NCBI GenBank assembly: GCA_035489715.1
Contig: DATHAP010000227.1
Span: 1 to 32,291, forward strand
Direction of reading: 5' to 3'
DNA length: 32,291 nt
Source: Actinomycetes bacterium
GTDB taxonomy: Bacteria; Actinomycetota; Actinomycetes; JACCUZ01
Part shown: in pieces, positions 688 to 9,808 of the stretch
Position numbering within the stretch: position 1 is the stretch's first letter
How the letters are laid out: every line of letters starts with the position of its first letter
The notes under the pieces: generated by a model
Databases searched by the model: none
The model's input: only the letters and a program-made list of their open reading frames with translations
Told to the model about the DNA's origin: nothing
Position numbers and translations under genes: made by a program

Positions 688-1317
688 ATGACGTACGCCA
701 GCACCAGCCTCCGACACCTTCAGGTGCTCGCAGCCGAGGAGGAGCCCAACCCCCTGCTGCCGCACCTGTCCGAGATCATCGTGGGGGCGGTCGCCTTCGC
801 CCTGCTGCTGTGGTTCCTGCAGAGGATGGTCTTCCCCGTCTTCGAGAAGACCTTCGCGGAGCGGCGGGACGCCATCGAGGGCGGCATGGAGCGCGCCAAG
901 GAGGCGGAGGAGGAGGCGAAGGAGACGCTCGCGCAGTACCGGGAGCAGCTCGCCGACGCCCGCCACGAGGCCGCCCGGCTGCGCGAGGACGCCCGCGAGC
1001 AGGGTGCAGGGATCATCGCCGAGATGCGCGAGCAGGCGCAGGCCGAGGCTCGTCGGCTCACCGAGCAGGCGCACCAGCAGATCGAGGCCGACCGGGTGCA
1101 GGCCGTCATCTCGCTGCGGTCCCAGGTGGGCACGCTGGCCACCGACCTCGCCGGCCGCATCGTCGGCGAGTCGCTCGAGGACGACGCCCGGCAGCGCCGG
1201 GTGGTCGACCGCTTCCTCGACGAGCTCGAGGCGCGCGCCGACGAGCAGGGCGCCGCCACGTCCGCGACGGCCTCGACATCAGGGACGCCGGTGGTCCAGG
1301 AGGACCCGACACCGTGA
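688..1317 (+). CDS. atpF: ATP synthase F0 subunit b (AtpF)
   Basis: Subunit b is the peripheral stalk that holds F1 static against the rotor. The product is 209 residues: a short N-terminal segment, one transmembrane helix at about 28-46, then a long charged helix rich in E, A, R and Q (about 55-185) that would form the right-handed coiled-coil stalk, and a low-complexity Ser/Thr/Ala tail. It begins 13 nt after atpE. Its stop codon overlaps the GTG start of atpH (GTGA), which suggests translational coupling. The length is somewhat above the usual 156-185 because of the tail and an extended N-terminus. Confidence 0.94.
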   Translation: MTYASTSLRHLQVLAAEEEPNPLLPHLSEIIVGAVAFALLLWFLQRMVFPVFEKTFAERRDAIEGGMERAKEAEEEAKETLAQYREQLADARHEAARLREDAREQGAGIIAEMREQAQAEARRLTEQAHQQIEADRVQAVISLRSQVGTLATDLAGRIVGESLEDDARQRRVVDRFLDELEARADEQGAATSATASTSGTPVVQEDPTP

Positions 1318-2144
1318 CCTCAGCCGGGATGCAGGGTGCGAGCCGCGAGTCGCTCAAGGCGGCCCGGGAGACCCTCGCTGCCCTGATCAGCTCGAGCGAC
1401 AACGACCTCGCACGGCTCAGCGACGAGCTGTTCTCGGTGACGGCGCTGCTCGACCGCGAGCACCCGCTGCGCCGGGCGCTCACCGACCCCTCCCGCGACG
1501 GGGACGCGAGGGTCGGTCTGGCCCGCGCCGTGCTCGGCGAGCAGGTGGGCGGCGCGACGGCCGACCTGCTGGCCTGGGTGGTGCGGGCCCGCTGGTCCGT
1601 GCCGCGCGACCTCGCGACGGCGCTCGAGCTGCTCGCTGTGGAGGCGCAGGTGGCCGCGGCCGAGCGCGCCGGCCGCCTCGACGAGGTCGAGGACGAGCTG
1701 TTCCGCGTCAGCCGTGCGGTGGCCGGCGCCCCCGAGCTGCGCACCGCGCTGTCCGACCTGTCGGCGCCGGTCGAGAGCCGGGCCGCCCTGATCGAGGGTC
1801 TGCTCGGCGGCCGGACCACCGAGGAGACCCGGCGCCTGGTGCGCCAGGCCGTGGTGGCGCCCCGCGGGCGCACCTTCGACCGCACCGCGGAGACCTACGG
1901 CCAGGTGGCCGCCGACCGGCGCAGCCGTCTGGTCGCGACCGTCACCGCCGTGGATCCCCTCACCGAGGAGCAGCGCGGCCGGCTGGCCGCCGCGCTGCAG
2001 CGGATCTACGGTCACGAGGTGCACCTCAACGTCCAGCTCGACCCCACCCTCGTCGGCGGCATCCGCGTCGAGCTCGGTGACGAGGTCATCGACGGCTCGG
2101 TGGAGAGCCGCCTGGACGACGCCCGACGACGGCTCGCCGGCTGA
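1314..2144 (+). CDS. atpH: ATP synthase F1 subunit delta (AtpH)
   Basis: Delta connects the peripheral stalk to the top of the F1 head. I place the start at GTG 1314, which overlaps the atpF stop (GTGA) and has a perfect AGGAGG at 1298-1303. ATG 1329 is possible but has no comparable site. The reading frame is open further upstream, but that part only shadows atpF. From 1314 the product is 276 residues, with the six-helix N-terminal region (about 10-110) and a C-terminal alpha/beta region ending in the family-typical stretch IRVELGDEVIDGSVESRL. The long form (about 270 residues) is usual for actinobacteria. A 96-nt spacer follows; I see nothing there but the atpA ribosome-binding site. Confidence 0.92.
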   Translation: MTSAGMQGASRESLKAARETLAALISSSDNDLARLSDELFSVTALLDREHPLRRALTDPSRDGDARVGLARAVLGEQVGGATADLLAWVVRARWSVPRDLATALELLAVEAQVAAAERAGRLDEVEDELFRVSRAVAGAPELRTALSDLSAPVESRAALIEGLLGGRTTEETRRLVRQAVVAPRGRTFDRTAETYGQVAADRRSRLVATVTAVDPLTEEQRGRLAAALQRIYGHEVHLNVQLDPTLVGGIRVELGDEVIDGSVESRLDDARRRLAG

Positions 2145-2240
2145 CACCGGCCTGACGACGTACGACGTGATGGAACGAGCACAGCAGAACTTCAGAGCAT
2201 CACCACCGAGCAGGACCGAGAAGAGAGCAGGGAGCGCGAC

Positions 2241-3893
2241 ATGGCCGAGCTGACCATCCGGCCGGAGGAGATCCGGGACGCACTCGAGCGCTTCGTCTCG
2301 TCGTACGAGCCGGAGGCCGCCGGGCGCGAGGAGGTCGGGCACGTCACCGAGGCCGGCGACGGCATCGCACGCATCGAGGGCCTGCCCTCGACGATGACCA
2401 ACGAGCTGCTCGAGTTCGAGGACGGCACGCTGGGCATCGCCCTGAACCTCGACGTCGGCGAGATCGGCGCAGTCGTGCTCGGCGAGTTCCGCGGCATCGA
2501 GGAGGGCCAGCCGGTCAAGCGCACCGGCGAGATCCTCTCGGTGCCGGTCGGCGACGGCTTCCTCGGCCGGGTCGTCGACCCGCTGGGAAACCCGCTCGAC
2601 GGCAAGGGTCCGATCGAGACCACCGAGCGGCGCGCCCTCGAGCTGCAGGCGCCCTCGGTCGTCCAGCGCCAGCCGGTCAAGGAGCCGATGCAGACCGGCA
2701 TCAAGGCGATCGACGCGATGACCGCCATCGGCCGGGGCCAGCGCCAGCTGATCATCGGCGACCGGCAGACCGGCAAGACCGCCGTCTGCCTCGACACGAT
2801 CATCAACCAGAAGGCGGACTGGGAGTCGGGCGACCCCAAGCGCCAGGTCAAGTGCGTCTACGTCGCCGTCGGTCAGAAGGGCTCGACCATCGCGTCGGTC
2901 CGCCAGGCGCTCGAGGAGAACGGCGCGCTGGAGTACACGACGATCGTCGCCGCGCCCGCCTCCGACCCGGCCGGCTTCAAGTACCTCGCCCCCTACACCG
3001 GCTCGGCGATCGGCCAGCACTGGATGTACCAGGGCCAGCACGTGCTCATCGTCTTCGACGACCTGTCGAAGCAGGCTGACGCCTACCGCGCGGTGTCGCT
3101 GCTGCTGCGCCGCCCGCCGGGCCGCGAGGCCTACCCGGGCGACGTCTTCTACCTGCACTCGCGGCTGCTCGAGCGCTGCGCGAAGCTCTCGGACGAGATG
3201 GGCGGCGGGTCGATGACCGGCCTGCCGATCATCGAGACCAAGGGCAACGACGTGTCGGCGTTCATCCCGACCAACTGCATCTCGATCACCGACGGGCAGT
3301 GCTTCCTCGAGACCGACCTCTTCAACTCGGGCGTGCGGCCGGCCATCAACGTCGGCATCTCGGTCTCCCGCGTGGGAGGCTCGGCCCAGGTCAAGGGCAT
3401 GAAGAAGGTCGCCGGCCGCCTGCGGCTCGACCTGGCGCAGTACCGCGAGCTCGAGGCGTTCGCCGCCTTCGGCTCGGACCTGGACGCGGCGTCCAAGGCC
3501 CAGCTGGCCCGCGGGTCCCGGCTGGTCGAGCTGCTCAAGCAGGGCCAGTACTCGCCGTTCTCGGTCGAGAACGAGATCGTGTCCATCTGGGCAGGGACGA
3601 CGGGCAAGCTGGACGACGTGCCGGTCGAGGACATCCGCCGCTTCGAGAGCGAGCTGATCGACTACCTGCACCGGGAGCAGAAGGGCCTGGTCGACAGCAT
3701 CCGCGAGACCAAGGACCTGGGGGACGACACCGTGTCCTCGCTCGAGGACGCGGTCGACGCCTTCAAGCGCCAGTTCGAGACCTCCGCCGGCGAGCTGCTC
3801 GTCAACGACGAGCCGGTCGGCTCGATGGACGAGGACGAGGTCGAGCAGGAGACCATCAAGAAGCACGTGCGCAAGCCGGCGCAGCAGGGCTAG
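2241..3893 (+). CDS. atpA: ATP synthase F1 subunit alpha (AtpA)
   Basis: Alpha is the non-catalytic nucleotide-binding subunit of the F1 hexamer. The product is 550 residues, the normal length for actinobacteria. The beta-barrel N-terminal domain is followed by the P-loop GDRQTGKT (173-180), with the glutamine typical of alpha rather than beta, then by the [11 protein letters not shown] region and the conserved segment with [10 protein letters not shown]. The C-terminal tail (about 510-550) is acidic and then basic, as in mycobacterial alpha subunits, where the extension has been linked to low ATP hydrolysis; that link is family knowledge, not shown here. The ATG at 2241 follows an AGGGAG ribosome-binding site. 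Confidence 0.98.
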
Positions 3894-3896
3894 CGG

Positions 3897-4829
3897 ATGG
3901 GTGCCCAGCTGCGGGTCTACCGCCGTCGGATCAGGACGGTCAACTCGACCAAGAAGATCACCAAGGCGATGGAGCTCATCGCCGCGTCGCGCATCGTCAA
4001 GGCGCAGCAGCGGGTCGCCGCGTCGACCCCCTACGCCGAGGCGATCACGCGCGCGGTCTCCGCCGTGGCGAGCTTCTCCGAGGTCGAGCACCCGCTGACC
4101 GGCACCGTGCCGGCCTCCGAGCAGGAGGGTCACGAGGGCCCCGCGCGGGCCGCCCTGCTGCTCATCACCAGCGACCGCGGGCTGGCCGGGGCGTACTCCT
4201 CCAACGCCATCAAGGAGGGGGAGCGGCTCTCCAACCTGCTGCGCGACAGGGGCAAGGAGGTCGTGCCCTACGTCGTCGGCCGCAAGGGCGTCGGCTTCTA
4301 CCGCTTCCGCCAGCGCGAGATCGCCGGCGAGTGGACCGGCTTCTCCGAGGCGCCGACCTACGCCAACGCCAAGGAGGTCGCCGACGCGGTCATCGACGCG
4401 TTCCTCACGCCGGACGACGAGGGCGGTGTCGACGAGATCCACATCGTCTACACGCAGTTCGTCAGCAGCGTCACCCAGCGCACCGTGACCCGACGGCTGC
4501 TGCCGCTCGAGGTGGAGGAGACGGACGAGGAGCCGGAGGGCGGGTCCTTTCCGCTCTACGAGTTCGAGCCGAGCGCGGAGGCGGTGCTCGACGCGCTGCT
4601 GCCGCGCTACGTGGAGAGCCGGGTCTACAACGCCCTGCTGCAGTCTGCAGCCTCCGAGCTCGCAGCGCGTCGCCGGGCGATGAAGTCCGCCACGGACAAC
4701 GCCACCGAGCTCATCAAGACGTACACCCGTATGGCCAACGCGGCCCGCCAGGCCGAGATCACCCAAGAGATCAGCGAGATCGTCGGTGGCGCGGACGCGC
4801 TCGCCAGCGCGAACGCCGGGAGTGAGTGA
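3897..4829 (+). CDS. atpG: ATP synthase F1 subunit gamma (AtpG)
   Basis: Gamma is the central rotor shaft inside the alpha3beta3 head. The product is 310 residues. The N-terminal coiled-coil helix carries the family signature [18 protein letters not shown], and the C-terminal partner helix carries [20 protein letters not shown] and [15 protein letters not shown]. The central Rossmann-like domain includes the [11 protein letters not shown] motif. An acidic insertion around residues 205-216 ([12 protein letters not shown]) is typical of actinobacterial gamma. The gene starts 3 nt after atpA and ends 3 nt before atpD, so translation is probably coupled along the operon. Confidence 0.97.
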
Positions 4830-6681
<1,852 letters not shown>

Positions 6682-6719
6682 CCGGTGGGCGCGACGGGGC
6701 CGGCGGGCAGGCGGGCGCG

Positions 6720-7157
6720 ATGAGCCTCGTCGTCGTGCTGGACGCCCTCGCCGCCGTCGTCGTCGTCGCCCTGCTCGGGCTGGTGATGCTCGCCCTGCGT
6801 CGCCGGTTCATCACCCGGCGCGGCGGAACGTTCGACTGCAGCCTGCGTGACGGCGCCGGCCAGCAGCACGGCAAGGGCTGGGTCCTCGGTGTCGGCCGCT
6901 ACGCGGGCGACGTGCTGGAGTGGTACCGCGTCTTCAGCTACTCGACCCGACCCCGCCGAGTCATCGACCGGCAGCGCCTGCAGGTCCTCGACCGGCGCGA
7001 ACCGAGCGGCATCGAGGCGTTCTCGCTGCTCGCCGGTGCCGTCGTCGTCGCGTGCCGCGACGGCTCCTCCGACATCGAGCTCGGGATGAGCCCGGAGACG
7101 GCCACCGGGTTCCTCAGCTGGGTCGAGTCCGCCCCGCCCGGCCTGCCGCGCAGCTGA
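6720..7157 (+). CDS. DUF2550 family membrane-anchored protein
   Basis: The product is 145 residues with one N-terminal transmembrane helix (about 3-26), a basic stretch (LRRRFITRR) and a soluble beta-rich domain with the pattern GGTFDCSLR, KGWVLGVGRYAGDVLEWYRVFS and a C-terminal IELGMSPETATGFLSWVES. This pattern and its position directly after atpC match the DUF2550 family of actinobacteria. The molecular function of the family is unknown to me. The start at ATG 6720 has only a weak purine-rich region ahead. Co-transcription with the ATP synthase genes is likely because the gap is 38 nt and carries no terminator. Confidence 0.82.
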   Translation: MSLVVVLDALAAVVVVALLGLVMLALRRRFITRRGGTFDCSLRDGAGQQHGKGWVLGVGRYAGDVLEWYRVFSYSTRPRRVIDRQRLQVLDRREPSGIEAFSLLAGAVVVACRDGSSDIELGMSPETATGFLSWVESAPPGLPRS

Positions 7158-7167
7158 CCGGCTCGAC

Positions 7168-7575
7168 ATGGGGGCGGACGTCGGGCTCGTCGCGGCGTCG
7201 GCGCTGCACGCCGGCTTCCAGCTCGTCGTCACCGTGCTCGTCTACCCGGCGTTCCGGACGGTGCCGGTCGAGCTCTGGGCGGCCCACCACGGCCGGCACA
7301 CCCGACGAGTCACCTGGCTGGTGGTGCCGGTCTACGGGCTGCTCGCGTTGGCCGGCCTGGCCACGCTGCGCTCCGGTGCGGACGCGTGGCAGCTGGTCGC
7401 CCTGGGGCTGCTCGTCGGGTGCGTGGTCGTCACGGCGACAGTCGCCGGGCCGGCGCACTCCCGGCTCGCGGCCGGTCGTGACCCTGCCGCGCTGGCTCGC
7501 CTGCTGGTCGCCGACCGGCTCCGGTGTGTCGCCGCCGTGCTGGCCGGCCTCGCGGCGCTGGTCGCTAGCTCTTGA
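7168..7575 (+). CDS. small four-helix membrane protein, unknown function
   Basis: The product is 135 residues with about four predicted transmembrane helices (roughly 5-25, 50-68, 75-96 and 112-132). Short charged loops include an AAHHGRHTRRV segment between helices 1 and 2. The His/Tyr-containing first helix (LHAGFQLVVTVLVYPAFR) resembles small integral membrane proteins of the DUF1772-like type, but I cannot assign a family with confidence. The gene begins 10 nt after the DUF2550 gene, so it probably belongs to the same transcript. Its 3' end overlaps the 3' end of the convergent phosphatase gene by 11 nt. Confidence 0.7.
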   Translation: MGADVGLVAASALHAGFQLVVTVLVYPAFRTVPVELWAAHHGRHTRRVTWLVVPVYGLLALAGLATLRSGADAWQLVALGLLVGCVVVTATVAGPAHSRLAAGRDPAALARLLVADRLRCVAAVLAGLAALVASS

Positions 7576-9808
7576 TGGCCGGGCGGCTCGGCAGCCGGAC
7601 GCTCGGCCAGCTGCAGGCCGCCAGCCGGGACTTGAGCACCGTGCGCTCGGCCCCGTCGACGGCGAGCCGCCACCGCCACTTCACGGCGACGTACTGCGCC
7701 AGGTAGGAGCAGCGGAACGCCTTGCGCGGCAACCAGTCGGTGGGCTCCCGCCCGGCCTTGGCCGTGGCCGATGCCTTGGTGACGCCGATCAGCGTGCTCG
7801 GATAGCCCAGGTCGTTGCGCAGCTGTCGACGGGTGAGCGTCGACCAGCGGTGGGCCCCGGACTGCCACGCCTCGCGGAAGCCGACCACCGGGTCGGCGAC
7901 CAGGTCGTTGATGCTGGTGCGCGTGGCGCCGTCGTAGCGTGAGAGCCACTTCCCGCGGGTGAGCGTGCAGCCGCTGCGGACCTGTGGGGCGGAGACCGCC
8001 TCGGCGATGAACACCTCGCGCGGGGTCGCGCACCGGTCGCCGTCGGCGTCGGTCCACCCGGAGAACCGCCTGGCCGTGTAGCCCTTGCGGTGCTCGGTGG
8101 CGGTCCGCAGGTCGGCGAGCAGACGCTTGGTGCTGCGCATCGGCATCGGGGTCGTGGCGGTGGCCGGCGCCGAGAGCGCGGACCGGTTGCCGGCCGCGTC
8201 GACGGCCTCGACGGTCCACCGGTAGGTGCGGCCCTGAGCGAGGCCACGGTCGCGCCACGACGTGGTGCCGCCTCCGAGGGTGGCGACCACGGCGCCGTTG
8301 CGACGCACGACGTAGGCCGTCACGCCGACGTCGTCGCTCGACGCCTGCCACGACACCTGTGCGGCGGTGGGTGACACCGGCCGTGCGCTGAGGCCGGTCG
8401 GCGTGCTCGGCGCGGTCGTGTCCGGCGGCGGCGGGATGGCGCCGGCGATCCGCTGGCGGCAGGTGACTGTGCCCTGGTCGACGGTGCTCGGTGGGGAGAC
8501 GTCGCTGACCTGGGTGTAGGCGAAACTGGCGTCGTCCTGGCCGAGGTCCAACCGCAGAGCACCGATGCTGCCACGCGCTGCGACCCGGCTGTCCTGCGCC
8601 ACCATCGGGTTGACCGGTTCCCGGCCGCCGCCACCGGCGACGATCTGGGTGAGGCCGCCGCCGACAGGGTTGCCGGCCGCGTCCATCGGGGTCCAGCGCT
8701 CGTACCGGTGCACGTGGCCGGCCAGCATCAGCGTCACGCCGCGGTAGTACGCGAGCGACCAGAGGTCCTGCAGGTACGCCCTAGCGCCGGGTGCCTCGGC
8801 GTAGCGCGGCTGGTGCTGCATCAGGATGGTGCACTTGCCCGCGTTCGCGCGCAGGTCGGCGTCGAGCCACTGGTACTGCTCGGTACCCGCTGCAGTCTGG
8901 GGAGTGGCACCGCCTCGGAGATCGTCGAGACTGTTGCTGTCGATTACTGCGACGTGCCAGCCGCCGATGTCGTAGCTGTACCAGCGCGGGACTCCTCCCC
9001 AGTACTGGAAGTAGGGCGCCGCTCCGGGCTGGCGGTACTCGTGGTTGCCGATGACCGGGTTGGTGATATCGCGTAGGTCGCCGTATCCGCCGTCCTCGCC
9101 GTACCAGTTGTCGAACTCATAGGCAGTTGCGTCGGTGTAGACATCGCCGAGGTAGCCGAAAGAGCTGGGGTTCCAACTATTGATGACGTCGACCACCTGG
9201 TGCGACTGCGGCGAACCGTCCGCCCCGTCACCGACGGCCGCCATCGTGTAGCGCGCCCCTGGAGCCGGCGGCGTGCCGGTGCGCGGGGCGAAGTTCGGGT
9301 ACTGCGGAAGCGGCGTCACCGTGTCGGGGGTGACAGAGGCTCCGGGCGAATCGGCGGTCGCGTCGTTGCTGGCGCCGTCGAACTGGTTGTTGTCCAGCAC
9401 GGCCCTGGCGGTCAGGTTGCCGGTGGCCGTTCCCACTCGGCGGCTGATGAGGCGCATGCTGAACGAGCCGTCGGGCGACGGATCGTTGTCCACGAGCAGC
9501 GGATGGTCGAAGTCGCCGTTCCAGACGAACCGAACTCGCTGCACCATCGCCTGAGAATCGTTGACGGTGACCTTGGCCGTGACATCCACAGGATCGGGCT
9601 GGTCCGGCACTGTCAGACACACCCGCACCGTGTAAGGCGCATACACGGCGTTGACCGTCCGAGGCACCTGCGTGTCGGCGCAGACCTCGGGCGCGGCGCT
9701 GGCCGGACCGGCTCCGGTGGCGAGCAGGCCGAGGGTGAGTGCCCCCGTCAGGACCGAGATGGTGGCCGCTCTCAGACGGCTTGTGGACGTCGTACCGGAT
9801 CCCCGCAT
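7565..9808 (-). CDS. secreted metallophosphatase / fibronectin III / degenerate HNH fusion
   Basis: The product is 747 residues. A signal peptide (about 1-38, cut at ASA) leads into a beta-rich domain (about 40-180). A calcineurin-like metallophosphoesterase follows, of the purple-acid-phosphatase-like type: GD at 193-194, GDVYTD 221-226, GNHEY 254-258, QHQP 331-334, GHVHRYE 364-370. Next come one fibronectin III domain (about 466-554) and a C-terminal domain (about 561-735) resembling actinobacterial secreted HNH nucleases (GmrSD C-terminal/DUF1524-like), with SGWTDADGDRC, LSRYDGAT, EAWQSGAHRW and DWLPRKAFRCSYL. The HNH catalytic positions are lost: the usual DH is D639-P640, and the usual Asn before the conserved Lys (K684) is Ala681. 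The phosphatase half should be active and the nuclease-like half probably is not, perhaps binding only. The start at ATG 9808 is chosen because the signal peptide follows directly; no good ribosome-binding site precedes it. The part coding the phosphatase has clearly lower GC than the 3' part. Confidence 0.85.
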   Translation of the reverse strand: MRGSGTTSTSRLRAATISVLTGALTLGLLATGAGPASAAPEVCADTQVPRTVNAVYAPYTVRVCLTVPDQPDPVDVTAKVTVNDSQAMVQRVRFVWNGDFDHPLLVDNDPSPDGSFSMRLISRRVGTATGNLTARAVLDNNQFDGASNDATADSPGASVTPDTVTPLPQYPNFAPRTGTPPAPGARYTMAAVGDGADGSPQSHQVVDVINSWNPSSFGYLGDVYTDATAYEFDNWYGEDGGYGDLRDITNPVIGNHEYRQPGAAPYFQYWGGVPRWYSYDIGGWHVAVIDSNSLDDLRGGATPQTAAGTEQYQWLDADLRANAGKCTILMQHQPRYAEAPGARAYLQDLWSLAYYRGVTLMLAGHVHRYERWTPMDAAGNPVGGGLTQIVAGGGGREPVNPMVAQDSRVAARGSIGALRLDLGQDDASFAYTQVSDVSPPSTVDQGTVTCRQRIAGAIPPPPDTTAPSTPTGLSARPVSPTAAQVSWQASSDDVGVTAYVVRRNGAVVATLGGGTTSWRDRGLAQGRTYRWTVEAVDAAGNRSALSAPATATTPMPMRSTKRLLADLRTATEHRKGYTARRFSGWTDADGDRCATPREVFIAEAVSAPQVRSGCTLTRGKWLSRYDGATRTSINDLVADPVVGFREAWQSGAHRWSTLTRRQLRNDLGYPSTLIGVTKASATAKAGREPTDWLPRKAFRCSYLAQYVAVKWRWRLAVDGAERTVLKSRLAACSWPSVRLPSRPAIKS

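Follow-up and report, generated by a model that had tools for sequence, protein, structure and literature searches.

The gene at positions 7565..9808 on the reverse strand of the window (the whole stretch of 32,291 nucleotides that was analysed) encodes a 747-residue protein, read from its translation, a paralogue and orthologues, in which a secreted purple-acid-phosphatase (PAP)-like metallophosphatase is joined to a C-terminal GmrSD_C/HNH domain that appears catalytically dead. Our favoured explanation, held with moderate confidence, is that this domain derives from a GmrSD_C/DUF1524 HNH nuclease secreted by actinobacteria and would now serve the phosphoesterase as a non-catalytic targeting module. 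Comparison with related proteins suggests that a secreted nuclease fold has been turned repeatedly into a targeting module of this kind, one that would probably bind polyanions.

Domain architecture and the phosphatase core

All features described below lie on the reverse strand. The protein opens with a signal peptide (residues 1-39, 9692..9808), read from the sequence by its Arg-containing n-region, hydrophobic core and ASA-A cleavage site. The Ig-like N-terminal domain that follows (residues ~40-170, 9299..9691) aligns with the Big_7 (PF17957) domains of four homologues (L041, L042, L044 and L045). The original prediction had placed a beta-rich domain here and called it unknown; the domain is real, but the Ig assignment replaces that label. 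Next come the metallophosphoesterase domain (residues 185-455, 8444..9256; PF00149), assigned to the purple acid phosphatases by profile and fold, and a fibronectin type III (fn3) domain (residues 462-552, 8153..8425; PF00041). A Pfam scan of the 747-residue protein matched Metallophos at residues 242-369 and fn3 at residues 468-551. The C-terminal GmrSD_C/DUF1524 HNH-fold domain (residues 553-747, 7568..8152) carries a net charge of about +18. The signal peptide, phosphatase and fn3 domain had all been predicted, and each is borne out by the sequence features or Pfam matches given here. The model of the full-length protein, with a pLDDT of 66.7, is too weak to judge contacts between the domains.

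The metal-binding blocks of the phosphatase are located at GDGADG 193, GDVY 221, GNHEY 254, H332 and GHVH 364, and all five are recognisable, as had been predicted. The fold matches 1xzw (E 2e-13), and the profile likewise points to a purple acid phosphatase. We therefore describe the protein as a predicted PAP-like metallophosphoesterase of family PF00149 with five metal-binding blocks. The plant enzymes (1xzw, 4dhl; PF00149) similarly combine an Ig-like N-terminal domain with a metallophosphoesterase core containing five blocks, whereas the window protein adds the fn3 and dead HNH domains. Canonical block motifs of PAP-like metallophosphoesterases are DXG and GDXXY. Set against the spacing of these motifs, block I of the window protein reads GDGADG, and block II reads GDVY, its Tyr two residues past the Asp.

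Next to the phosphatase gene lie genes for F-ATPase, for a DUF2550 protein and for a cobalamin adenosyltransferase. Window positions 688-7154 contain the F-ATPase genes (B, alpha, gamma, beta) and, after them, the DUF2550 gene. No operon partner for the phosphatase gene was found among the window neighbours, and a GmrS (DUF262) domain is absent from the protein and from the neighbouring window ORFs scanned.

Fold and catalytic residues of the C-terminal domain

By itself, the C-terminal domain of the window protein falls below Pfam detection, while sister domains in L004 and L005 score 24.1 and 27.2 bits, above the PF07510 GmrSD_C gathering cut-off of 23. An AF2 model of the domain, built with 34 sequences, reached a pLDDT of 96.2, and Foldseek superposed it on a viral GmrSD_C protein with a TM score of 0.77 over 187 columns (E 5e-11). 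In the PDB, a fold search returned weak matches, mostly HNH domains and chiefly Cas9, and a sequence search with the HNH profile returned chance matches only; the firm fold match therefore came from the viral library. The domain is accordingly modelled as a GmrSD_C/DUF1524 HNH fold, in agreement with the HNH frame proposed originally.

The GmrSD_C/DUF1524 family (PF07510) takes in both the GmrD domain found in Type IV restriction enzymes and the proteins secreted by actinobacteria that are called 'HNH endonuclease family proteins'. Besides the fold, the window domain shares with these proteins the conserved cysteines and core, at 30-58% identity across the alignment. It differs from them in P640 and A681, in the loss of the flanking Asp and in its strongly basic character. 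The window protein also differs from them in its fusion to a phosphatase and in having no GmrS domain.

A modelling study of GmrD assigned the His as the general base, metal binding to the Asp and the second Asn, and a structural role to the first Asn (PMC4619093). Aligned against these roles, the window domain has D639-P640 (codons 7889..7894) where Asp-His is expected, so that the general base is lost, and A681 (codon 7766..7768) where the metal-ligand Asn is expected. Judged from the DSSP line of the AF2 model, D639-P640 close the first finger strand and A681 lies in the finger helix. The predicted loss of both catalytic positions thus holds up: D639, P640 and A681, together with K684, are exact in the translation, and the Asn is present in 158 of 168 surveyed HNH copies.

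The metal-ligand Asn is gone from all six copies of the phosphatase fusion, where it is replaced by A, V, I, I, L and L, and the Asp residues at 637 and 686 are lost from all six as well. The catalytic His has become Pro in the window protein (DP) and its paralogue (AP) and is kept, as EH or DH, in the other four. Only two His residues, 573 and 653, occur in the window domain; neither is conserved, and no alternative conserved His/Asn pair emerged. By sequence, the window domain lacks both the Asp-His and the helix Asn of an active HNH (His-Me finger) nuclease. For the four copies that keep the His, complete inactivity is predicted from the loss of the Asn and flanking Asp.

Recurrence, retention and charge of the dead domains

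A second whole fusion, the 49%-identical paralogue, is present in the window genome, and the fusion also occurs in four other genomes of the eight-genome family, giving six fused copies in all. The paralogue and the orthologues in the four other genomes rule out a chance open reading frame or a misassembly. Metagenome-assembled genomes (MAGs) with the fusion include Actinomycetota BP_166 and BP_173 and Sporichthyaceae MGR_bin113. A further MAG, CAN_BIN15 (L039), is titled Spirochaetaceae but has the same actinobacterial fusion; it matches G006, a genome grouped with the window's family, and its title is probably wrong. No fusion was found outside the eight-genome family in overlapping samples of the class (395 genomes) and phylum (396 genomes), and no plasmid record covered 80% of the window protein. 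A widespread fusion is ruled out by its restriction to one family in the class and phylum samples. Only two HNH copies were detected in the window genome, both of them dead and fused.

To place these copies in context, we surveyed 168 non-redundant HNH copies from genomes and viral contigs, fetched top-scoring first and hence not a random sample. Intact copies number 158 and broken ones ten; nine of the broken copies belong to the window's family, and no plain stand-alone nuclease is among the ten. The nine clear dead cases all come from uncultured genomes of this one family. Six are the phosphatases. One (L108/L193, L035; G005:C179) is a secreted protein of the heparinase II/III-like type whose dead HNH domain is N-terminal; in that domain the pair reads D-V, the Asn is Ala and the net charge is +9. 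Another (L109/L192; G004:C174) is a secreted reprolysin-like protease whose dead HNH domain is C-terminal; there the pair reads T-A, Ala replaces the Asn and the net charge is +16 to +17. The last (L013/L036) is a protein with a Thr-Pro-repeat linker whose N-terminal part is cut off by a contig end. All six family copies that have no enzyme partner are intact (L033, L034, L037, L104, L110 and L111). The tenth broken copy, L196 (G114:C2), lies in another family; it keeps the DH, has Thr for the Asn, carries a charge of +1 and is fused to an N-terminal domain with an HEWLH motif. It is possibly a further dead-HNH case.

The best tree of HNH copies implies three inactivation events, with a separate origin for the reprolysin-like protease copy. 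An AU test rejects a single origin for the nine dead copies (p 0.015) but not once the protease is set aside (eight copies, p 0.28); on these sequence comparisons, at least two independent inactivations are therefore secure, and the heparinase-like and phosphatase copies may go back to one event. The fusion described at the outset as a single case thus occurs in five family genomes and proved to be one of a recurrent set.

The dead domain has been retained much as its neighbours have. Among the six fusions, mean pairwise identity is 53% for the HNH domain, 53% for fn3, 58% for the phosphatase and 40% for the Ig domain, with invariant columns at 29%, 30%, 31% and 12%, respectively. The HNH domain is thus conserved like fn3 and nearly like the phosphatase, consistent with the retention originally claimed, and its cysteines and core residues are kept in the fused copies.

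The dead domains are also set apart by charge. Net charge ranges from +9 to +19 in the nine dead domains, against a mean of -3 in the 158 intact copies. With related copies treated as independent, Mann-Whitney tests gave p 1.8e-6 for the ten broken versus all intact copies and, on the same assumption of independence, p 0.0019 for the nine dead versus the six intact family copies. Basic residues have been gained in the dead copies at positions including 645, 661, 699 and 728, and acidic residues have been lost at 637, 649, 661 and 686. The remainder of each fused protein is acidic, from -8 to -37 where computed; in the window protein the Ig domain has a charge of -7 and the phosphatase -12. Genome composition is ruled out as the source of the basic charge, since the protein remainder is acidic and intact copies of the same family are less basic.

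Relatives of the phosphatase carry other modules in the C-terminal position. The Big_7-Metallophos-fn3 proteins of Chloroflexi (L041) and Micromonospora (L044, L045) share the Ig-phosphatase-fn3 core at 35-41% identity and end in CBM96, and L042 ends in polysaccharide-lyase/laminin-G-like domains, whereas the window protein ends in the dead HNH domain. Among plasmid records, a homologue of the phosphatase carries a discoidin-domain annotation. For the fused protease, a homologue search covering eight family genomes found a protein (L287, G001:C143) that ends in three repeats, read as jelly-roll and giving an InhA-like MAM match, in the place taken by the dead HNH domain in L192. As judged from these alignments, the dead HNH domain takes the place of a binding module in several enzymes, in the manner of a carbohydrate-binding module. 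In G003, a tandem phosphatase relative (L038 2-1204) with Ig-like and PxKF domains at its end lies upstream of the fusion. Two proteins with intact HNH domains, L197 and L199, continue into repeats that read as CWB2-type and S-layer-type anchors, respectively.

Proposed targeting module and alternative roles

In the sequence of events that we favour, a secreted GmrSD_C/DUF1524 nuclease would have been joined to an Ig-phosphatase-fn3 enzyme, losing its catalytic residues while keeping its fold. The retained and strengthened basic surface would bind polyanions, extracellular DNA in the first place and anionic wall polymers in the second, and through the bound module the acidic body of the enzyme would stay at the cell surface, in biofilm or on debris. 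A reprolysin-type protease of the same bacterial family underwent this conversion independently, and so, probably, did a heparinase-like enzyme. Such a module would act like a carbohydrate-binding module and not as a substrate-specific partner. The appendage had originally been suggested to bring the phosphatase to its substrate. The targeting role is supported by the basic domain, the binding-module slot and the parallel conversions; because dead domains also occur on a protease and a heparinase-like enzyme, however, it is unlikely that the domain specifically recognises the phosphatase's own substrate.

DNA is favoured as the ligand because of ancestry and charge, and a wall polymer is placed second because the fused enzymes differ in substrate. 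A narrower proposal, that secreted GmrSD_C nucleases were repeatedly turned into non-catalytic modules that bind nucleic acid and anchor exoenzymes as different as a phosphatase, a protease and a polysaccharide lyase to extracellular DNA, as a nucleic-acid equivalent of carbohydrate-binding modules, is one we advance tentatively from the sequence comparisons. The positive charge could instead serve wall retention, with the dead domain fastening the enzyme to its own cell envelope through peptidoglycan or an anionic wall polymer. The differing substrates of the phosphatase, protease and heparinase-like enzymes that carry dead domains, the strongly basic character of the domain and the anchor-like repeats of the intact relatives L199 and L197 agree with such a role, but nucleic acid is the ligand of the ancestral fold and Pfam found no known wall-binding family in the dead domain; we regard it as somewhat unlikely. 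The probabilities behind these gradings overlap with that of the favoured explanation where an alternative, such as a wall polymer as ligand, is a narrower version of it.

Roles other than targeting appear improbable. A role in regulating the phosphatase or in its dimerisation is conceivable in that a basic domain could dock on an acidic enzyme, yet unrelated modules fill the same slot in relatives and unrelated enzymes carry dead domains too. Even less expected is an altered but active nuclease, in which the EH/DH copies hydrolyse phosphodiesters through a rearranged metal site and strip phosphate from nucleic acid. Nuclease and phosphatase would make a sensible phosphate-scavenging pair, and four of the six fused copies do keep the His; against this, the metal-ligand Asn, D637 and D686 are missing from all six, and the window protein and its paralogue lack the His, with His 573 and 653 of the window domain not conserved. 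Least probable in our view is neutral decay, with function lost after fusion and a nuclease remnant tolerated as a structural tail. The old catalytic positions do vary between copies, as relaxed constraint would give, but the HNH domain is as conserved as fn3 and nearly as conserved as the enzyme, its cysteines and core residues are kept, and all nine dead copies are basic.

The favoured targeting module would combine known kinds, namely an accessory module attached to a PAP-like exoenzyme and a domain of the pseudoenzyme type. Pseudoenzymes in general likewise lack the catalytic residues of their enzyme fold and are retained in a non-catalytic role (PMC10211241, PMC5106787). The original prediction had cited no described example, and our literature search likewise returned no description of such a fusion or of a secreted HNH pseudonuclease as an accessory module; as subscription journals were thinly covered, this is weak evidence of absence.

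The holding of exoenzymes in place is usually credited to carbohydrate-binding modules. If DNA or another polyanion is the ligand of the dead HNH module, exoenzymes would have a further means of being held in extracellular DNA or on cell surfaces. For annotation, GmrSD_C or 'HNH endonuclease' matches on multidomain secreted enzymes may mark anchors and not nucleases. If true, the finding would also mean that a nuclease has more than once, and convergently, become a binding domain, leaving a charge signature by which other such cases could be sought.
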